This document shows positions 26,423 to 39,238 of a stretch of 64,000 bases of DNA, in pieces. The notes below the pieces were generated by a model that had not been told where the DNA came from, made no database searches, and saw only the letters and a program-made list of their open reading frames with translations. The stretch comes from Schizochytrium sp. TIO01 (Eukaryota > Sar > Bigyra > Thraustochytrida > Thraustochytriidae): the NCBI GenBank assembly GCA_004764695.1, contig SMSO01000032.1:6344668-6408667 (forward strand). The letters run 5' to 3'. Numbering within the stretch: the first letter of the stretch is position 1; each line of letters starts with the position of its first letter. A program made the position numbers and the translations under genes.

Positions 26423-29400
26423 ATGGCGGCGGCCGGTTTCGCGGCATCTGTCTCTTCCCCCGCGCTCGCTGCTGCCTCTCTCGCTGAGGAGTCCTTGCGT
26501 CGTCTCGAAGATGAACTTCGCAGCGCCGATCGCGACCTCCGCACTGCGCAGCGTGGCATCCCTCGTGGCTCCACTGCCGACTCTGTGCGTCGTCAGATGG
26601 CATCTCTCGAGTCTCAACGCGAGCGCAGCGCTCATATGACTCTCTCGGAGGAGAAGGCCTTGCTGAAGGATCTTACGCGTCTTCGTGGCGTGATGCGCTC
26701 TCTCGAAAACATTTCCGCCATTCAGAACCGCATTCGCGATCTCAACGCCGCCAAGGCAAAAGCGGCTCAGGCCAAGGTCGAATCTGACGCCGGAGTCCGT
26801 GAAGCGGAGCTGGTAGCCCGCAAGCTCGAGCTCTGTCGCCGTATCTCCGTCGCCAAGGGTGGTATCGTTGTGAGCGTGGACCAGCTCTCTGAAAAGGCTG
26901 TCAAAGTGCCCAAAGATCGTATTGGCCACTTTGTTGGCAAGAGTGGCACTCGCCTCACACGCATGGAAGAGGACCTCTTCGTCGCCATCAAGGTCCACGC
27001 AGACGGTCTCGTGCAAATCGTCGGCGTCAAGGAGGACGTTGACGCTGCAGCTCAAGCCGTCGCAAGCTTTTGCAATGAAAAGACTGAGCAGATACCACTC
27101 TCGGAAGCAGATATACACGTGTTGCGCATGGATAAAAATGATCACCTTCATACGATCGAGAATCTTCTAAACGTAAGCGTGACGCTAGCAGGAACCTCAA
27201 TGTGGGCGCGTGGCCAGCCTGAGAACTTGGAACGGCTCAAGCAGGCTATTAAGGACCTTGGAGCTAGGACAGAAGAGGTCCAGGTGGTACCGAACGGAGC
27301 ATTCTTGAGGATGTTGCTAATGCAAGGAGGAGCCGAAATTCAGGCAGTAGAGAAGGAGTTCAATGTAACGCTGGATCTCGACCGCATAGCAGGACGCATC
27401 AAGGTACTGGGAAGGATGAAGGAGGTTGAAGACGCAGTAAAGAAATTGAATGAAATGGCAGAGGAAAATGAGGAAAAGACGAAGGAAATCGAATTAAAGT
27501 CACAGGAGCAAGCAGCGGCTATTATTGGCAAAAAGGGAGCAACTGTGAGAGAAATCCAACAGGCAACCGGAGTGCATATTACGGTCATTAAACCTTCGGA
27601 CGAGACGCAGGAAGTACCCCGCGTGGTCATTCGAGGAATTCCTGCAAAACTAGGCATTGCGGAAGCTGCGGTGCAGGAGATTTTGGAGAAGCATGCAAAG
27701 GAAAATGCTGTGGTGGAGTTTCCTGAAGATTTCCACAGCGTTCTCTTTGGATCCGGCACAGGACCATCTCGCATCAAGGAGATCCAAGATGCATCCGGTG
27801 GCGCTATCGTCGTGGCACACCGTCGTGATGCATCCTCGGCACCTTCACCCTCAACTTCTACCTCTGACACTATTAGCATTTATATCCGCGGACCCGAGGA
27901 TGCAGTGGCTAATGCGACGCAGGCCACGCGCGATCTTGTCGCTTCCCTGGAAAAGCTCGAGATTAACGTTCCCGAAGAGGTCCGTCCAGCGGTGATTGGG
28001 CCCAAGGGCAGCATTATCTCTAAACTCCAGAGCGAAACAAAGACAAGCATCTCCCTTAGCGATGGCCGCGCTGTGATTCGCGGTTGTAGCGAGGATGTCA
28101 GCAAAGCTCAGGCCACGATCCAGGAGATCATCCAAAGACACGAGCGCGAAAACGTCTCTCTCCTTGTGCTAGCCTCCGCAACAGGCAACCTTATCGGTAA
28201 GGGTGGCTCAAATTTGCGCAAGTTGCGGGAGGAAACGGGCGCACAAATTGACGTGCAGATGGATCGGCGCAACCGTGGCGGGAACAACAACAGCAATGAG
28301 GAGGACGAGGACGAGGGTAATGACAACAACAGTGCCAGCATTAACGGGGCAAGCCAAGACAGCAGCAGTAAGCCAAGGAGACAGCAGCAGCTATCCCCGC
28401 CAGCTTCTGATAAGTATGGCAATATCACTAGTGTCAGTACAATCCGAATTCGCGCTGAAGACCCCGAAAAGTTGCAGGCAGCAGTGTCGGCAGTTAAAGG
28501 TCTTCTCAAGGATTCGCTAGTATCAGAGGCTGAACGGAACGCCTTTCGTGAGGCATTGCTGCCTGTTCCATCACCCGAAGCAGTTCGCAGGCTCGTTGGT
28601 CGTAACGGTGAGACTATTCGCAAGCTCGAAGAAGATCATGGGGTTCAGATCGATGTCTTGCGCAGCTCACAGGAAGTTCGAGTTCGTGGCAAGGCTGGAC
28701 AACAGATGCTTGACGCACTCAACAACATCCGAGCACTCCTGGAAGAGGGTGTCCATGTGAAAGAGAAGCTTGTCAATGTTCACAAGCGCGTAGTCGCGGC
28801 ACTTTCCGATGCTGCAACTGTGCGCCGTCTTCAGGATGAAACCGGCGCGCAAGTGCGTCTTGAGGAAGAAACACCTGTTTCGGAAGACTCATTCTCATAT
28901 CTTAAACCAAAAGAAGACTCCAAACCAGTTCAGGTTGTCTTAATGGATGGGCCAGGCCCCAACGTGCAATCACTCAAGCAAGCTCTTGCTGAGATTGCCT
29001 TGGGTATTGAGCACGAGCTCCTTCGTATTCCTGAGAGCCATATTAACTTTCTTGCTCAGAGCTCCACGAAGCCAAACCTGGAGCGGCTTGAAGAACAGCA
29101 CAGTGTGAAACTCGAGGTGAATGAAACTCGCAACCAAGTGCGCCTTGCTGGTAAGCCTAACAAGCTTGTAGCAGGTAAAACTGCGCTTTTCGCACTTCTT
29201 CGTTTTTCCTTTCCTAACCAGACTCTGCGCATCGCTCTTGATACACCAACTATAATCGCCCATATTATTGGTAAAAAGGGAGCAACTATTAAAAAGATCC
29301 AAGAGGACTTCCCAGATGTTCAAATGAGTGTGCATCGTGAAACATGTGGCGTCGACCTTATCGGTGAAGATGCAGACGCTGTAAAGGGTGCAGCACAAGC

Positions 29401-30628
29401 GATCGAAAATATTATCGAGACCTGGCAAAAGCAGAACATTAGTGTTGCTGTTCCGGTAGAATGTATCCCATCAATCATTGGTAAGAAGGGAAGTACTATT
29501 CAGGAAATTAGGACGCAGAGTGGAGTGGAGCAAATTGATGTTGATCGCGATGCTAAATGCGTTCGTTTGCGTGGTCCCGAAGAGGCGTTAGATAAAGCAA
29601 AGGAGCTTGTACTTACGCGAGTCGCACAATATGAACGTGAAAATAGTGTCATCATGATTGATCCTGCAGAGGTACCTTTTCTCATTGGGGCGAAGGGTGC
29701 TTCAATTCGTGCAATCCAAGAGGAGTCAGGAGCTCGCATTGACGCTTCTCAATCAGCGCCTGGTACTGTACACCTGCATGGGCCCGAGGAGAGTATTGCA
29801 AAGGCACGCGAGCTTATTCAAAAGAAACTCCAGGACGAACGTGACGCGCAAGCCCAGCGCCGGCAGGAGGAGCAGGATCGTCGTCAAAAGCAATATGAAG
29901 AGTCCCTCAAACGCCAGGACGAGGAACAGCGCCGTGTGGAAGAAGAGAAGGAGCTCAAGGACCAATATGCTCAAATGCAAAAGAAAATTGATCAGATGAT
30001 TGGCATCTCACCATCCACAGCGAGAGACACGGTTGCAGCCCTGGAGTCGGTGGTTCCTCTTGGAACCCCAGTGGAAATGGACACAACTATGATGAACTTT
30101 TATAAGCGGCCCAACCAAAAGTCAAAACAGCCAAAGCAAGAGCATGTAGTGACTCCCCCTCCCCAGGTCCAAGTCCAACAGCAACAACCACAACAACAGC
30201 AACAACAGCAACAGCTCCGAGAGGCCTCGCGGGTGTCTGGCTCACAAGTTATGAGCATGTTGCTAGGTGGTTCTGCGAATGAATCTACTCCTGCCGCAGC
30301 ATTTGGATTTGACATGAACCAATTTGCTGCCTCTCCACCCGCAACGCAATCTGCAGTGCAAGCTAATGTTTCTGATGCTTACTCGAATAGCTCTTCATCC
30401 AACAATACCTGGTCTTCTCTAGGCGCCCCTCCAGGCCTCCAAGCCAACAGCATCTGGTCTGCTGCCGCACCAACAGCAGCTCCACTGCCTCCAACATCAG
30501 CTGCGAGTTCGAACAGCCTTAATGGAGGACGTGCTCCACCCGGATTCGCAAACCCTGGACTCCCTAGCCTCGACCCTGACGACGAGTCTTTCTACAAGAG
30601 CAGTGACGGATTCACTGTCCGTCTGTAA
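26423..30628 (+). CDS. Vigilin-type multi-KH RNA-binding protein
   Basis: The protein is 1401 residues. A helical, charged N-terminus (1-150) is followed by a tandem array of about 12-13 KH domains up to residue ~1130. GxxG loops are clear in at least seven: FVGKSGTRL, IIGKKGATV, VIGPKGSII, LIGKGGSNL, LVGRNGETI, IIGKKGATI, IIGKKGSTI and LIGAKGASI. Others have lost the loop (for example VVAALSDAATV and FLAQSSTKP), as happens in Scp160/vigilin. After the KH array come a Gln/Glu/Arg coiled coil (about 1130-1190), a polyglutamine run near 1255-1265 and a low-complexity Pro/Ser/Asn tail. Vigilin proteins bind mRNA and polysomes, often at the ER. One Asn/Glu/Asp-rich insert (about 620-670) lies inside a KH domain. 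The start ATG is the first in frame. The gene is convergent with a TRF4-like gene 347 bases away. Confidence 0.93.
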   Translation: MAAAGFAASVSSPALAAASLAEESLRRLEDELRSADRDLRTAQRGIPRGSTADSVRRQMASLESQRERSAHMTLSEEKALLKDLTRLRGVMRSLENISAIQNRIRDLNAAKAKAAQAKVESDAGVREAELVARKLELCRRISVAKGGIVVSVDQLSEKAVKVPKDRIGHFVGKSGTRLTRMEEDLFVAIKVHADGLVQIVGVKEDVDAAAQAVASFCNEKTEQIPLSEADIHVLRMDKNDHLHTIENLLNVSVTLAGTSMWARGQPENLERLKQAIKDLGARTEEVQVVPNGAFLRMLLMQGGAEIQAVEKEFNVTLDLDRIAGRIKVLGRMKEVEDAVKKLNEMAEENEEKTKEIELKSQEQAAAIIGKKGATVREIQQATGVHITVIKPSDETQEVPRVVIRGIPAKLGIAEAAVQEILEKHAKENAVVEFPEDFHSVLFGSGTGPSRIKEIQDASGGAIVVAHRRDASSAPSPSTSTSDTISIYIRGPEDAVANATQATRDLVASLEKLEINVPEEVRPAVIGPKGSIISKLQSETKTSISLSDGRAVIRGCSEDVSKAQATIQEIIQRHERENVSLLVLASATGNLIGKGGSNLRKLREETGAQIDVQMDRRNRGGNNNSNEEDEDEGNDNNSASINGASQDSSSKPRRQQQLSPPASDKYGNITSVSTIRIRAEDPEKLQAAVSAVKGLLKDSLVSEAERNAFREALLPVPSPEAVRRLVGRNGETIRKLEEDHGVQIDVLRSSQEVRVRGKAGQQMLDALNNIRALLEEGVHVKEKLVNVHKRVVAALSDAATVRRLQDETGAQVRLEEETPVSEDSFSYLKPKEDSKPVQVVLMDGPGPNVQSLKQALAEIALGIEHELLRIPESHINFLAQSSTKPNLERLEEQHSVKLEVNETRNQVRLAGKPNKLVAGKTALFALLRFSFPNQTLRIALDTPTIIAHIIGKKGATIKKIQEDFPDVQMSVHRETCGVDLIGEDADAVKGAAQAIENIIETWQKQNISVAVPVECIPSIIGKKGSTIQEIRTQSGVEQIDVDRDAKCVRLRGPEEALDKAKELVLTRVAQYERENSVIMIDPAEVPFLIGAKGASIRAIQEESGARIDASQSAPGTVHLHGPEESIAKARELIQKKLQDERDAQAQRRQEEQDRRQKQYEESLKRQDEEQRRVEEEKELKDQYAQMQKKIDQMIGISPSTARDTVAALESVVPLGTPVEMDTTMMNFYKRPNQKSKQPKQEHVVTPPPQVQVQQQQPQQQQQQQQLREASRVSGSQVMSMLLGGSANESTPAAAFGFDMNQFAASPPATQSAVQANVSDAYSNSSSSNNTWSSLGAPPGLQANSIWSAAAPTAAPLPPTSAASSNSLNGGRAPPGFANPGLPSLDPDDESFYKSSDGFTVRL

Positions 30629-30975: not shown

Positions 30976-33900
30976 TTACTTTGCAAACAAAAGCCGTTCA
31001 AGAATGCCGCGCCTTGAAGACGACGAGCGAATAGTTTCACAGCGCACCGTATAGGATAAAAGATTAGCATAAAGGTCGGCAAATGCGCGCTGCACCTCTG
31101 CAACTCGGAAGCATGTACGGCCAACATTGTTACCTGTCTGCACTGGGTCGTCAACAACAAGCATTGCAATATAATCGCCAGCAGCATGGGGCGATGATGC
31201 TGCGTGAAAGCGAGGCCCAATGCAAGTAGTGTAACTATCTTTGTTGGCCATAGAAACGACTGTAAGTACAGCTTCTTGGGATGGAACAAAATCCCGACCA
31301 TAAAATTGGAGGAAGTCCATAAATAGCAAACCAAGACTCAATTGATGAGAAGGATGCATGTATTCTGCTGGAGGTGGTGGTTTTGCCTGTGTCTGTGTTT
31401 GTGTTTGTGCTGCACTTGCGGAGCTCATACCAATAGCAGACGAAAAATGCACGGTGTTATCTTCTGAGGAGCCATCACGAGAGCTTACATCATCAGAGCG
31501 ACGGTGTGGACGACGCAAGCGACGATCAACAGATCGGTTAAGTGAAGCCACAGTCATGAGTACCAACGCGTAAGATGACAGACCTCCAGAGAAAGGATCA
31601 TGTAAACCCCTTCCTACAAGGAATCGTTTCAATGTAAGAACAAGAGGTCGTAGCTGCTCATGCGTCTTTACCAAAGATCGTAAGAACTCTGCCGCTCGCT
31701 GACCTGCGTGCGAAGGTAAAGCAATTGTCAAGTCGACATTAACACAGCGACCTAGCACATCTTCGTCAGTTTGGAGTTTGATCACGGGCATCTTGGCTCG
31801 ATCGAGAATTTTAATGTTTTTAACCCAGTCTTTGTGGCGGATGACACGTCCAAGAATATTACAAATACTTGCGCCGTTTACATCGAGCCGCCCTTGATTT
31901 GAAAATAGCACTAGATCAACATCAGAAAGTTCAGGAACAGCTAGACCACTTGCGTACGAACCAAAAAGTTCTGCTCGAATACCTTGCCCGAAGCAAAGCG
32001 ACGCCTCATGTTCTATACGACTAATTATATCCATAATCATTTTTTCGTAATCAGGGTTTTCCTTGGCACATTTGTCTGCATACGCGGTAAGTTCAAAGCG
32101 AAGGTGGCGATGTAGGTTTCTCATTTGGCCATCCATGTGATCGTGGAGGGAGTGTGCATGTGGCGAGCCCAATGCATAAGCCTGTGACGAAAACGAAGAA
32201 GAAAGGGTACGATGAGAGAGAGCCCGCGGGGACTCAAGCGGTTCACCATCATCCAATTGATGGGATACATCGTTGCCCTCGTTATTATCTTCTTGGCACC
32301 CAAGACTACGGCTACGGTAATGGCGACGCGAGGCCTGCATAGGAGATGATGATATGGCTGAAATAACAGATGACGAAGTGCCTGCTGTCTCAATAGACAA
32401 CTCGGATGCTTGCGAGCCTACTCTACCACGTGTTAATGTCGCATCAAAGCTTCCGTGTGCACTGTTACGATGAATTCCACGGTTTGATCTTAAGCTTCCA
32501 TTCGTACTCATGTCTGATCCGATTCCTGTTGTTGCAACAGTGCAATGGCCTGTAAAACTTCTTTGGCTTGAGCCTGAAGGAGCTCGCTCTCGACGCATCT
32601 TAAAGCTTCCGTAACGACGTATGGGAGGTACTACATGAGCACTTTGGGCACGCGACCCCCTTGCCCCTCCGGTGGATTCCAGACCGACAGCTCGATGTAC
32701 ACCACTTGTGTTCTGCTCCTGGATAGCCTCCTCTAGCGAAGATACTCTATGACGTTGCTGGGTAAACCCTGTTGGAGATTCTTGCGAGTCGATATGATTG
32801 AGCATAGCTGGGCATGAGCGAATCCTTCGCATGGGCAGAACAAATCCCTTTCGTCGCGCACTTCCCGAACCACCCCCACCCATGGCACGCTCCATGGCCC
32901 GAAGTTCAACTTTTTGTCGTAATGCTTCGATCTCGGCAGCCTTAAAAATCCACGTGAGGTTTTTGCTGTTAATGAGCTGGTCACGATGTTGACTTCTTTG
33001 GCCAGCATCAAAGCTTGAGCCTCGACGCAGGAAGTCTGCTGGGAATGCGGGATCGAGAGAGTTTAGACTGTGAGCCTGACGATGGATTGGTGGTAGATCA
33101 TGGCGTGGCATGGACCCTAGCATTGGCGAAAACAAGGCTGAAGAAGCTGATAATGAGGACCCATGATGTGAACCTGATTGGGGCAGAGGCGAGAGGGGCG
33201 GCGTCATTGGACTCGAAGGGGCGTAGCCAGTTGCTTCATCAAGAGCTACCAAGGCTGCACTCCCTTGCGTATTCACATATCCAGTTGAGCGGCGGCGTCG
33301 GCGAGGGTCCCTCACTGGAGAGGTGCTCTCAATAGCAACACCATCATCACTAAGATTATCATGACCCGCTGCCAATTCTCGAGCATCTTGCTCCTCGTGC
33401 AAATTAGTAATCTCATCGAGACTATACGAGCGCCTCTCGAAAAAGGGTGGTGCTGAAGAATGATCTAGAGCATTCGGACGGTAACCTCGCATGTCAAAGG
33501 AAGAACTTCGGCTTGACTGAGTAGAGATTGGAGCATCGTAATCATCAAGCGATAAGAAATGATCATCAAATGAAGTCATTGCAGCTGATGACACTCTAGA
33601 GTCAACAAAGTCATGACCCTCTGTGTCAATGAAATTCTCACCAGCTAAAGTAGAAGACATTGACAGTGATGATGTGGCTGATATTAAAGAGGCAGACGAA
33701 GACCCTGAATGAGCACCAATATTTGGTGTACAGGTTGCACCGGCAAAACTTGAACTAAAATCTGTGGACGCCAAACGCCGAGCTCCAGATCTAGATACCA
33801 CAGCATCAATGCTGGCCACCTCATCATCTGAGCTCTCATCACCCTCGCGTTCGAGATTAATGAGACGTGCTTCAATAAGTGCCCGAAGGAGTTGATTGAA

Positions 33901-36900
33901 GTGCTGAGAACGCATTCGCTCATTTTCTTCTGGTGATAATGTCAGCCTCCGTTTTCTCTCTACTTCTGCAGCTTCAATAGCCATTTCCATATTTTTAATG
34001 CGATCCGCTTCCTCTTGCTGTCGCGTAGCAGGGGCAAAGGGGCAAACAGCAAGGTGCGCAGCATATTCAGAACGCAAAATAATATCAGTACACCCCATCA
34101 TGGAGTAAGGGCAAACAATTTCATACCTCTCCATATCCACGGTATTCGAAGAGATTTGCGTGAGGGTGTACCTATCCATATCGATGGGGCCTGTGTCTTC
34201 ATCATGATATGGGCAATGTATTAAATGCTCAGGGAGCATCGCACGCGAACACTCGTGCTCACAACCCATGACACGATATGGACATGCAACAATGAAGTCG
34301 AGTGGGTTGTACAAATTTGCAAATTCTTCGTTGGCGTGGTCATCGACCAGGTCTTTTGTACTCTCGCGAAATTTGCATTGAGATAAGTGTTCGTCAAGCT
34401 CACTGCGCTGACATGTCATTTCACATCCGAGAATCGTATATGGGCAAACGACTTCATAGTTATCCGTGTATGGTGAGTATCCATCATCGCTTGAACTAGA
34501 GCTAGACATCGAATCGAGATCTGAATCAAGGTCAGAAAGATAATTTGCTGAATCCTTCAAAGATGCAAATCCATAGCCATCATCGCCAGGTCGCAGGGAT
34601 GACTCACTTGGAAGCAGTGCTGGCGAAGATTTTGCAATACCATCCTTGTCGAGGCCTGCACGTTTAGCCCGTCTAGCCTCAGCTCGAGTCTTCCGACGCG
34701 CCTCCCGAAGGACAATGTCGGCCCCGGCACCACGTTTGATACGACGATTGCGTTCCACTTCTTCTTGACGGATTGTCCATTCTTTGAGAACCCGCCGCCT
34801 CCGATTAGCACGGCGCTCAAATGCTTTGTCGCGTCGAGTTTGCCGCTGCCGCTCTGCTTCCGTTGCCTTGATTGCCCATTCAAGACGCCGTGCACGCTCG
34901 AGTTTTTCTTGAAGTCTGTCATTCAATATTTCTTTCACACGTCTTGCTCGCTCTGCTTCAGCCATCTGAATAGCGCGAGCTACACGGGTCTCACGGTCAA
35001 CATCATAGAGTTTGTAATAGTTGGCAAGCACCTCTTGTCCCTCTTTAACGCTTCCGTTCATGCTAGCAGAAGAGGACAACGTTCCAATATTGTTGCTGCT
35101 AGCGGTGGTTGCAGCGCCAGTTGCGAACGCCCCCGTGGCACCTGTGGCATGATACCCTGACGTAGAGGATTGACCCATCGAAGACCTGGTTTCTACAGAT
35201 TCCCCTGCATCACTCCAACTTGCACTTTGACTATACGGGCGCGGGGAGAAATAAGGAGCGGTCTGGGGAAGGCGCAGCGATTCTGGGTTAGGCAACGCTT
35301 TCGCCAAATCAAGAACTAAAAGCTCTAGCTCGTGAGTCTCATCCTTGGCTGACATGGGACTTCGGTTGCCATCCCTGTGGGTTGGAGAGAATGGTTCGCA
35401 TGGTATGTTAAGGTTTGGTACGCTAGCTTGTGGGCGATATAATCGATTGTCATAGTGACCATACTCACCTATAGAGGACACCGAGGACGCATCTGCGGGT
35501 CTGTTTTGAGCATAAGGATAGTAGTACATGTATCCTGGTACATCGTATTGATGTGGAGTAGTGGAAGGCGAAGGCTGGCCTCCTTGGGGGTAAACTGGTG
35601 GTGGGGGTGGAAGTGGTAACGGCGGAGTCCTTGGACGTCGATCATAAAGCTCGCTTGGAGCATATTCTGACCTTCTCCGCGTGCCACCGCCATGAAGCCC
35701 ATACTGAGAAGAATACTGATATCTGGACCCCGCATGAATTTGTTGGTGCACTTGCTCTTGAAAATGCTGTTGATACTGGTGAGCAGGAGTAGGCGAAAAC
35801 CCCGTACCGTAGGTTCCTGCAGAATCGCTTTGTGCATGTGTTACAGCCATATCTGCAGATATAGGCAAAGTTGAACCTGGTCCTTGCGTGCCAAACGCAG
35901 CACCAAGTGATGTATGCTGGTATATTGCATTCATATGTGAGAGAGAAGTATTTCCAGAGGCCCTATTTGATGCACTCGCCCAAGAGCCAGCAAAGTTATT
36001 GTCCTCTGCATAGTTTGATGATGTTGAGTACAGATATGAATCATCAGTCAGGCCTTGAGCTTTTTGAGTTTCATTAGCTAAAAATTCATGGCTCAACCTA
36101 TCGTCTGTACTAACACCCAAATGTGAGGAAATTCGAGAATGTGTAGAAGATGCAGTAATGTCATCTCTCGAGTCATGCCGATCAAGAGTTGAGTAGGGAA
36201 CCACGTGCCTTCCAGGGGCACTAGATGCACGTGAGCGAGCTTCGTGCCTTCCAGGCAATGGGAGTTCATCGAAAGAGTCTATCTGGCGAGCACCCAAAAC
36301 AGCATTAATCTCGGATATTCTTGGTCGATCAGGAGAGTCCTGACCGCCAAGAACTGATAATGCAGCGAGGGATGCAGTTTCCTCAGCGTTGACCAGAGGT
36401 AAGCGCGATCGTGATAGACCTCTTTTATCCGTCGAATCTGAGCCGACAGCATCATCTTCGCCTTCGACCTCCTCAAGAATAGGTAAGAAGCCTTGAGGAT
36501 TGTCGCTACGTTGAATCTTCTTTTTTTTCTTTCTTTTCTTCTTCTTGCTAGCGTTGTCATTAGTTTCTTGGTTGTCATTATCCATGTTCATGTATGTATA
36601 TATTTCTGGTCCCATACTTTGAGATTTCTCACAATTAGGCATTACTGCTCCTGGCCCGTCTCCCTCACATAATTCATCACGGTTATCACTATCACTTGCA
36701 ACGGATTGGTCATCGTCTCCATTTGCGCCACCCTTCCTTCTCCTACGCCTTCGAGGACCCTTATGGGCTCGGCCATACATCAAAATCTTCAGTGTCTTTT
36801 TGTCTGCGCCACTTGCTACACTCGCAACATCATCGTCAAAACCCTCATCATTGTAGTCCTCATCATCAAGGCTCATGCTTGCCTTGGATCTTGTTGGTGT

Positions 36901-37092
36901 GTTTGGGGGGTGTTTTCTAGCACTGCGTGGTGTAAGAATGCCTTCTTCAAACCCGCACTGTACAGTTTGATCATCCCAAGTATCATCTTTGTTTCCATTA
37001 GTGGTGACTGATATTTTCACAGGTAGGTTTGTCTCTCTTACAGTATCTCTCTGGTCGGCAGAGCCTTCTCTGTCCTCATCCAGGCTCGCCAT
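30976..37092 (-). CDS. TRF4-like nucleotidyltransferase with TRAF-type zinc fingers
   Basis: The protein is 2038 residues. The C-terminal ~420 residues are a non-canonical poly(A)/terminal nucleotidyltransferase: RAELFGSYASGLAVPELSD is the G-S helix, catalytic Asp are D1724 and D1726 (SDVDLVLF) and D1787 (NVDLTIAL), and the PAP-associated domain has HQLSLGLLFMDFLQFYG. This is closest in motif to TRF4/PAPD5, which add short A tails that mark RNA for exosome decay. Far upstream, three repeated zinc-finger-like units lie at about 880-906, 935-960 and 993-1018. Each has the pattern CPYxxxGC, a basic residue, then HLxxC, like TRAF-type fingers. An Arg/Glu-rich helix (about 700-820) precedes them. 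The remaining ~1200 residues are disordered and Ser/Pro/Gln-rich, including a Lys run near residue 185. The first ATG is used. PAPD5 is about 600-700 residues, so this protein is threefold longer. Confidence 0.88.
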   Translation of the reverse strand: MASLDEDREGSADQRDTVRETNLPVKISVTTNGNKDDTWDDQTVQCGFEEGILTPRSARKHPPNTPTRSKASMSLDDEDYNDEGFDDDVASVASGADKKTLKILMYGRAHKGPRRRRRRKGGANGDDDQSVASDSDNRDELCEGDGPGAVMPNCEKSQSMGPEIYTYMNMDNDNQETNDNASKKKKRKKKKKIQRSDNPQGFLPILEEVEGEDDAVGSDSTDKRGLSRSRLPLVNAEETASLAALSVLGGQDSPDRPRISEINAVLGARQIDSFDELPLPGRHEARSRASSAPGRHVVPYSTLDRHDSRDDITASSTHSRISSHLGVSTDDRLSHEFLANETQKAQGLTDDSYLYSTSSNYAEDNNFAGSWASASNRASGNTSLSHMNAIYQHTSLGAAFGTQGPGSTLPISADMAVTHAQSDSAGTYGTGFSPTPAHQYQQHFQEQVHQQIHAGSRYQYSSQYGLHGGGTRRRSEYAPSELYDRRPRTPPLPLPPPPPVYPQGGQPSPSTTPHQYDVPGYMYYYPYAQNRPADASSVSSIGEYGHYDNRLYRPQASVPNLNIPCEPFSPTHRDGNRSPMSAKDETHELELLVLDLAKALPNPESLRLPQTAPYFSPRPYSQSASWSDAGESVETRSSMGQSSTSGYHATGATGAFATGAATTASSNNIGTLSSSASMNGSVKEGQEVLANYYKLYDVDRETRVARAIQMAEAERARRVKEILNDRLQEKLERARRLEWAIKATEAERQRQTRRDKAFERRANRRRRVLKEWTIRQEEVERNRRIKRGAGADIVLREARRKTRAEARRAKRAGLDKDGIAKSSPALLPSESSLRPGDDGYGFASLKDSANYLSDLDSDLDSMSSSSSSDDGYSPYTDNYEVVCPYTILGCEMTCQRSELDEHLSQCKFRESTKDLVDDHANEEFANLYNPLDFIVACPYRVMGCEHECSRAMLPEHLIHCPYHDEDTGPIDMDRYTLTQISSNTVDMERYEIVCPYSMMGCTDIILRSEYAAHLAVCPFAPATRQQEEADRIKNMEMAIEAAEVERKRRLTLSPEENERMRSQHFNQLLRALIEARLINLEREGDESSDDEVASIDAVVSRSGARRLASTDFSSSFAGATCTPNIGAHSGSSSASLISATSSLSMSSTLAGENFIDTEGHDFVDSRVSSAAMTSFDDHFLSLDDYDAPISTQSSRSSSFDMRGYRPNALDHSSAPPFFERRSYSLDEITNLHEEQDARELAAGHDNLSDDGVAIESTSPVRDPRRRRRSTGYVNTQGSAALVALDEATGYAPSSPMTPPLSPLPQSGSHHGSSLSASSALFSPMLGSMPRHDLPPIHRQAHSLNSLDPAFPADFLRRGSSFDAGQRSQHRDQLINSKNLTWIFKAAEIEALRQKVELRAMERAMGGGGSGSARRKGFVLPMRRIRSCPAMLNHIDSQESPTGFTQQRHRVSSLEEAIQEQNTSGVHRAVGLESTGGARGSRAQSAHVVPPIRRYGSFKMRRERAPSGSSQRSFTGHCTVATTGIGSDMSTNGSLRSNRGIHRNSAHGSFDATLTRGRVGSQASELSIETAGTSSSVISAISSSPMQASRRHYRSRSLGCQEDNNEGNDVSHQLDDGEPLESPRALSHRTLSSSFSSQAYALGSPHAHSLHDHMDGQMRNLHRHLRFELTAYADKCAKENPDYEKMIMDIISRIEHEASLCFGQGIRAELFGSYASGLAVPELSDVDLVLFSNQGRLDVNGASICNILGRVIRHKDWVKNIKILDRAKMPVIKLQTDEDVLGRCVNVDLTIALPSHAGQRAAEFLRSLVKTHEQLRPLVLTLKRFLVGRGLHDPFSGGLSSYALVLMTVASLNRSVDRRLRRPHRRSDDVSSRDGSSEDNTVHFSSAIGMSSASAAQTQTQTQAKPPPPAEYMHPSHQLSLGLLFMDFLQFYGRDFVPSQEAVLTVVSMANKDSYTTCIGPRFHAASSPHAAGDYIAMLVVDDPVQTGNNVGRTCFRVAEVQRAFADLYANLLSYTVRCETIRSSSSRRGILERLLFAK

Positions 37093-39238
37093 AGCTTGAC
37101 TTAGAGATAACCGTGAAGCCTCGCGTTCATCGGCTTCGTGCGCCTATTAATTACCAAAGCTCCGTTTCTATGGGAGAAAACTTCTGAGTTAGACTTTCAA
37201 TTTCGTCTCCAATTTGACGCCAAAATTTCAGCAAACCTGGTTCTCCAAAGGCGCGCACTGTATGTGCTTGAACGTAGCTCGGCGAGAGCGCACGGAAAGG
37301 ACAAGGGCAGCTTTGATCAATGCTTGCGGCCGCTTCACGACAGAAACAGAATCCTTTTAGTCTATAGCCAGAGAGCTGCGGCCGCAAGCAGTCTCTAGTA
37401 TACCCTGCGTAGTGGCACGCTAACCCCCGTGCCCTCCGGAAGGTTCTCAGCACAATATCGCTTTGCCAGCTTGAAGAGGGTTTGCGTTTACAAAAGTAAT
37501 GAATGAATTGATTTCTCTTCTTCTCCTTTCTTTTTTGTTTTGGAAAAAGTTGTGCGCTATGCTATGATTTACCAGTTTTAAAGTAAATAAATTAGTTTTC
37601 TCATTTATTTCCACTCTCTACAGAAAACTTTGCAAAACCCTTCCGCGTTGAATCCTCTCCTCAGCTCAACGCTCATATGTTTCGCAAGCCGTTCTCTAAG
37701 TCAACTTTCTTCAATTTCGTCATTGTTTATGACGCAGTAAGCTTGTTCTCTCTTCATTGGTTTTTGCCTCGCGTTGTTCTTTTCATTTGTTCTCAGTTTG
37801 CTCTTTCGCTCTTTCGTTTCTCCACGCGCCTACTTTTGGCTTTGCCAATCTGTGTTTCCTGCTACCGCAATTCGTCTTTGCAATAAAGCCAAGAATAACG
37901 ATGGCCATAACCTTCGTGTGGAGGGACTGAGCTAAGGCTGTGGAATGGACTTTGCGAGATTGCTTCGTGCCACCTCTGGGACGAGACCGTCTCCAAGTTT
38001 GGGACGAAGATCAGCGGACCTTGAGAACACACCACGAAATCAGCATCGATTGCAGAATCGTAAGCCAGCGAGCTCTACGATGTTTTAATTCTTTCAATGC
38101 TGTTGCGAAGAAGAATTCGTAGCTTTTCCCAAACGATTTGCACTCCATGGCAATACGAACTTCCTTGCCCAATTGCCGCTTCTTCAGCACACGATCTTGT
38201 TCGAGCAGAACTGCACCGTGATCGTTGTGGTTTTGTTCAGAATTAGTGTAACGAAGTCAAGCTTTAGCACGTACCTAAATGCTAAGTGAACATTTTGTGT
38301 CTTTTCCCACAATCGTCCACGCAAAGTGCATTCCTACACTGCGTAGACTACTACTCAGTTCAAGGTCTGCCAATTCAAAGAGACCGTCCCATCATCGTAG
38401 TTTCACTGAGCTCTGCGCTCCTGATTACATCCTCGAAAGCTTTCATGAGCCAAGCCAATTCCATCCATCTCCGAGCTCGGACTCTCAAGCCACCTATTCA
38501 GCAAAAGAGAGCGTCCTGGACAACCCAAAATGGCCCAAAATGGGTTTCTCTAAAGCAATTTCCCATTGCCTGTTTTCGTATATAACTAAACTCGCTTCGC
38601 CGCGGACCTCTACTACTCCGTCTCGCTCCACTCGCCGCCATCACTACTCTCCGGCCTTCTCACGCCCCTTCTTTCTACGCTGCGGAGTTGCGTTTCACCC
38701 GAGGGAGCAGCGAGGGAGGGAGAGAAAGAGAAAGAGAGTGAAGAGACAGCGAGAAGTCGGGAGTTGGTCTTGGAATGCTGCAGAAGACGTGAGTCCCGCT
38801 TCTCCGTACCTTGAAAACTAGCGTCACCTTCTTGGTCTTGCAGTTTACCAAGACACCTTTTGCTAAGCCGACGTGTGTGGACATCTGGCTCGCTCTGTGC
38901 TTGATCGCCTATGCTGATAAACCTGTGTATACTTGCTGCTACTTCGAAACGCCATCGCAAGTGCTTTGTCGGTTTTCCGAATTTTGGCGGAACTACGAGC
39001 TGTGATATAAGAGATCTGAAAGATTTGGAGTCCAAAGATCTTTCTTCGTTAGGTTTAGTGGGTCCAGCGTCTTCCCCAGCCTAGGTTGCATCCACCACAA
39101 AAAAAACTCGGAGTTTTCTGCTTTCTGAGCTGCTTGGGTATTGTTGAGGTCAATTAAAAAAGTGAAATTGTGGCGTGCCTTGCGCCAGGTTTCAAGCGAA
39201 GTCTCTCGTATTCTTTGGCAAGCTTGCAACTTGCAAGA
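37093..39238. other. 2.1-kb intergenic region between divergent genes
   Basis: Holds the promoters of the TRF4-like gene (left) and the disordered protein gene (right). Overlapping frames at 37138-37453 and 38279-39035 occur on both strands. The longest (38279-38821, plus, no ATG at its first codon) is Ser/Arg-rich and has no family features, so none is called. The segment at 38690-38760 is a purine-rich GAGAGAAAGAGAAAG run. Confidence 0.5.

Follow-up and report, generated by a model that had tools for sequence, protein, structure and literature searches.

A predicted TRF4-like nucleotidyltransferase with TRAF-type zinc fingers in the genome of Schizochytrium sp. TIO01

It is known that the TENT4 enzymes are directed by partner proteins, with ZCCHC7 in the TRAMP complex and ZCCHC14 on other RNAs (PMC7988573), that TUT1, TUT4 and TUT7 carry a nucleotidyltransferase and zinc fingers in one chain (PMC6240794), and that H336 of Cid1 has a reported significant role in UTP selectivity (PMC4357723). 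The protein described here is encoded in a 64,000-nucleotide stretch of contig SMSO01000032.1 of Schizochytrium sp. TIO01 (the window, whose numbering is used throughout), within an assembly of 64 Mb in 37 contigs, a genome of nuclear type. Like TUT1, TUT4 and TUT7, it joins a nucleotidyltransferase and zinc fingers, but their fingers are of the C2H2 and CCHC kinds, whereas those of the window protein are TRAF-type. With TRF4/TRF5 (TENT4A/B, PAPD5/7) it shares the catalytic fold family, the Asp triad, the GGLxSY motif, the nucleotide-recognition motif and the side of the tree. In contrast to these enzymes, it is divergent in sequence, carries TRAF-type fingers and Arg/Glu repeats in addition, and is about three times as long as the TRF4 of the same organism (2038 versus 729 aa).

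The frame runs from ATG to TAA through 2038 codons with zero internal stops, and its stop-to-stop length is 2055 codons, only 17 more than that of the ATG-led frame. When codon usage was compared in blocks of 120 codons, using the other long frames of the window plus the paralogues as training set, this frame was preferred over the five others in 15 of 17 blocks, the two non-preferring blocks falling in low-complexity stretches. The single uninterrupted frame noted in a first-pass annotation of this DNA is therefore confirmed. The features of the gene, all on the reverse strand (-), are as follows.

30976..37092 (-): whole frame, 2038 aa (open frame plus coding signal in 15/17 blocks)
35011..37092 (-): N-terminal low-complexity region, residues 1-694 (composition)
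34714..35010 (-): three tandem 33-residue Arg/Glu repeats, residues 695-793 (lag-33 identities)
34375..34446 (-): predicted zinc finger 1, residues 883-906; C883, C890, H902, C906 (pattern and Pfam)
34213..34284 (-): predicted zinc finger 2, residues 937-960; C937, C944, H956, C960 (pattern and Pfam)
34042..34113 (-): predicted zinc finger 3, residues 994-1017; C994, C1001, H1013, C1017 (pattern and Pfam)
33919..34017 (-): fourth Arg/Glu repeat copy, residues 1026-1058, after the fingers (picked by eye)
32173..33867 (-): low-complexity linker rich in Ser, residues 1076-1640 (judged by composition only)
32887..32985 (-): degenerate fifth Arg/Glu repeat copy, residues 1370-1402, in the second linker (by eye, uncertain)
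31537..32142 (-): palm and central domain of the nucleotidyltransferase, residues 1651-1852; D1724, D1726, D1787 and a TRF4-like GGLSSY
31357..31536 (-): low-complexity insert within the catalytic region, residues 1853-1912
31066..31338 (-): PAP-associated region, residues 1919-2009 (phmmer alignment; below the Pfam cut-off)

Just upstream of the gene (37322-37389) there is an inverted repeat, GCTTGCGGCCGC...GCGGCCGCAAGC; the genome has no other exact copy of the pattern. The convergent neighbour (26423-30628, +) encodes a vigilin-like protein of 1401 aa in which nine KH stretches were recognised, also RNA-binding.

In the catalytic region, the nucleotidyltransferase domain retains an intact GS motif together with D1724, D1726 and D1787, the three aspartates of the triad being located at exactly the residues given in the first-pass annotation. 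Two Pfam profiles, MTPAP-like_central (37.7 bits) and NTP_transf_2 (30.9 bits), passed their cut-offs, and the nearest solved relative was yeast Trf4 (3nyb, E 2.9e-15), followed by Cid1 (6.4e-13). The C-terminal PAP-associated domain that had also been proposed stood only in part: phmmer aligned this region with both Trf4 and Cid1 through an intact nucleotide-recognition motif (DPVQTGNNVGR, residues 1982-1992), but the PAP_assoc score (17.1 bits) was below the cut-off of 22.6. Within the motif, N1988 occupies the column of Cid1 H336, where Trf4 likewise has N, and a Cid1 chain with N in this column (4fhx) outscored the Cid1 chains with H. Replacement of H336 in Cid1 reportedly shifts the preference towards ATP, and the position of N1988 in the H336 column thus suggests that the window enzyme would prefer ATP over UTP. 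A second structure model, built from the single sequence, was poor (mean pLDDT 36.7).

A tree of catalytic regions placed the window protein with Trf4 and against the Cid1/TUT enzymes (support 100/99) on the basis of 12 rows, of which those from yeast, plant and fungi were partial (aligned stretches only) and in which seven of nine inner forks were weak. Membership of the Cid1/TUT enzymes was rejected on this tree. Cid1 and URT1 have H at the selectivity position, where the window protein has N. Inside the TRF4 side, it fell in a five-member divergent group of its own genome with L042, L044, L045 and L046, although the support for this group (91/96) was not strong. L042, L044 and L046 have a similar enzyme module without fingers. 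L045 (G000:C24:5171500-5178500, frame from 2190, +) is likewise large and rich in low-complexity sequence and has an extra domain at its N-terminus, but this is a Dev_Cell_Death (DCD) domain (57 bits) and not an array of fingers, and, unlike in the window protein, about 360 residues of low complexity are inserted into its catalytic palm, the frame remaining open. The same genome encodes an ordinary TRF4 of 729 aa (L043, E 3.3e-45 to yeast Trf4), which scores 158 bits against yeast Trf4 versus 59 for the window protein. The label "TRF4-type" given earlier thus holds at the level of the clade, but the window protein is not the TRF4 of this organism: it is a divergent extra paralogue beside an ordinary TRF4, as judged from these sequence comparisons. 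We rejected both its identity as the TRF4 orthologue (the TRAMP subunit), since L043 is closer to yeast Trf4, and a replacement of TRF4 by it, since L043 is present. One Mtr4 (L060), several proteins with multiple CCHC knuckles and a URT1-like enzyme (L047) are also encoded in the genome, as is a nucleotidyltransferase of the Cid1/TUT type that has a CCHC knuckle at its C-terminus (L048; G000:C31:4974500-4979500, frame from 2106, +).

The three fingers follow the same pattern, C-x6-C-x11-H-x3-C, with starts 54 and 57 residues apart, and the Cys and His residues predicted to act as zinc ligands are present in each of them. A looser version of the pattern had three matches in the protein versus 0.0045 expected from 2000 shuffles of the same residues. 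As an array, they scored 34.1 bits with Pfam zf-TRAF (in three stretches) and 33.5 with zf-TRAF_2, both above the cut-offs of 27; none of the single fingers exceeded the zf-TRAF cut-off alone, so that only the whole array passes. These scores bear out the earlier description of three TRAF-like fingers at about residues 880-1018, as well as their reading as zinc fingers by profile. AlphaFold2 run without an alignment modelled the region poorly (mean pLDDT 49.7), finger 3 being the best part (pLDDT 72-78), and a Foldseek search with this low-confidence model gave no significant match (best E 0.039). Its top-ranked chains were, nevertheless, TRAF6, SIAH1 and the zinc fingers of an F-box protein, and further down the list came LNX1 and LNX2, all non-significant; a TRAF6 chain superposed on the model over 32 columns at 1.1 A rmsd, and a TRAF6-Ubc13~Ub complex was among the titles. 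This result, resting on a model, is suggestive and agrees with Pfam zf-TRAF, of which it is not independent proof. Fingers of the TRAF6, SIAH and LNX kind mostly bind proteins. The window array resembles them in its pattern and in passing the zf-TRAF cut-off, but differs from the TRAF, SIAH and LNX proteins in the distances of 54 and 57 residues between its fingers and in the lack of RING and MATH domains, neither of which was found across the whole protein; its identity as a TRAF protein was rejected on that account. A protein search disclosed no second copy of the finger region in the genome, and a search of solved structures by sequence gave no matches to it. A genome search with zf-TRAF at E 0.1 missed even the array of the window, so that absence is not demonstrable by it. 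Elsewhere in the genome (G000:C3:1799790-1805699), an open frame of 2549 codons has at least 10 zf-TRAF matches.

Outside these modules, about 1260 of the 2038 residues are rich in Ser, Pro, Gln, Gly and Asn and poor in hydrophobic residues, a composition that matches the disordered scaffold of 1200 residues that had been described. The N-terminal region contains two basic tracts, RRRRRRK (114) and KKKKRKKKKK (183), which are possible nuclear-localisation or RNA-contact sites. An Arg/Glu helix had been noticed before the fingers; it is present, and takes the form of a tandem repeat of 33 residues with the core xAIxxAExERxRR. At lag 33 the region had 23 identities versus 11.2 in shuffles, none of 5000 shuffles being as high, and the periodicity had p 0.019 when any lag from 5 to 59 was allowed. 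In a protein search at E 0.001, no other place in the genome matched the repeat region.

We believe, with moderate confidence, that the gene encodes one large and probably active TRF4-like non-canonical poly(A) polymerase, a divergent paralogue that would be recruited by a partner through its fingers. The first-pass annotation had proposed that the part recognising RNA or protein may have been built into the enzyme itself. In the RNA form of this reading, the fingers and the basic repeats would recognise RNA, with a role similar to that of AIR1/2 for TRF4. The Arg-rich repeats, with a net charge of +0.13 per residue, and the basic tracts could indeed touch RNA, units 1 and 3 have a weak similarity, below the cut-off, to the CHHC finger of U11-48K (E 0.42 and 0.017), and U11 snRNP chains appear low down in the Foldseek list. 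However, the finger array itself is acidic (-0.11 per residue), has TRAF spacing and finds its top matches among protein-binding fingers. Moreover, since the ordinary TRF4, Mtr4 and the multi-knuckle CCHC proteins have all been kept, there is nothing to replace and a built-in substitute for AIR1/2 is unneeded. We thus consider this role unlikely and did not uphold the earlier proposal in this form. Because the fingers resemble those of TRAF6, SIAH and LNX and not the CCHC knuckles of AIR1/2, docking to a protein is more likely, as far as family resemblance can tell, than built-in RNA recognition, although contacts of the Arg-rich repeats or the basic tracts with RNA are possible.

Two further explanations concern the enzyme part. 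The weak PAP_assoc score and the far drift from TRF4 (59 bits where L043 reaches 158) would be consistent with a catalytically dead or nearly dead nucleotidyltransferase in a protein acting as a scaffold. However, the Asp triad, GS motif and nucleotide-recognition motif are all intact, which is not what one would expect of a dead domain, and we consider this explanation improbable, somewhat more so than the recognition of RNA by the fingers. As for the existence of two genes or two products, in which separate finger and enzyme proteins would arise by an internal promoter, splicing or cleavage, the fingerless L042, L044 and L046 indicate that the enzyme part is able to stand alone, and frame preference is weak in two blocks of the second linker. 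Against this, a first gene would require a stop that is missing from the single ATG-led frame of 2038 codons, and we regard this explanation as very improbable.

In the one-protein, partner-recruited enzyme that we favor, the catalytic module would extend RNA 3' ends with nucleotides, A being the most likely one, and the three TRAF-type fingers, lying between Arg/Glu helical repeats, would most likely dock a partner protein, which would deliver the enzyme to its RNA or to its cellular site, while the low-complexity stretches might serve as flexible tethers and perhaps contact RNA. Catalytic activity is probable from the conserved sequence features, and docking of a partner through the fingers is most likely the mechanism, the best supported one, on the strength of their family resemblance. 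By analogy with the TENT4 enzymes, TRAF-type fingers could let another class of partner steer the enzyme. More speculatively, and with considerable doubt on our part, TRF4-like enzymes may have multiplied in this lineage, each equipped with its own targeting module, such as the TRAF-type fingers of the window protein or the DCD domain of L045, and RNA tailing would then be steered directly by protein signals of the TRAF or ubiquitin kind.

The first-pass annotation knew of no such architecture elsewhere, and we found no counterpart either: no report of TRAF-type fingers and a nucleotidyltransferase in one protein appeared in the literature searched, which took in few subscription journals and was in part searched by exact phrase. 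Relatives of the finger region were absent from viral contigs and from bacterial and archaeal genome contigs, and those of the catalytic region from viral contigs (alignment scan) and phages (tblastn), all of these being collections without eukaryotes and hence silent on protists. The fusion of zinc fingers to this enzyme superfamily is not new as such, as TUT1, TUT4, TUT7 and L048 illustrate, but the combination of a TRF4-kind enzyme with TRAF-type fingers appears not to have been described before. TRF4-type enzymes need separate partners to reach their RNAs, and here putative docking fingers share the chain with the enzyme. Docking fingers fused to the enzyme, in a genome with a retained TRF4, would be evidence that gene duplication plus domain fusion can redirect tailing, and the fused enzyme would offer a simple experimental system in which to ask what a module of this kind recognises.
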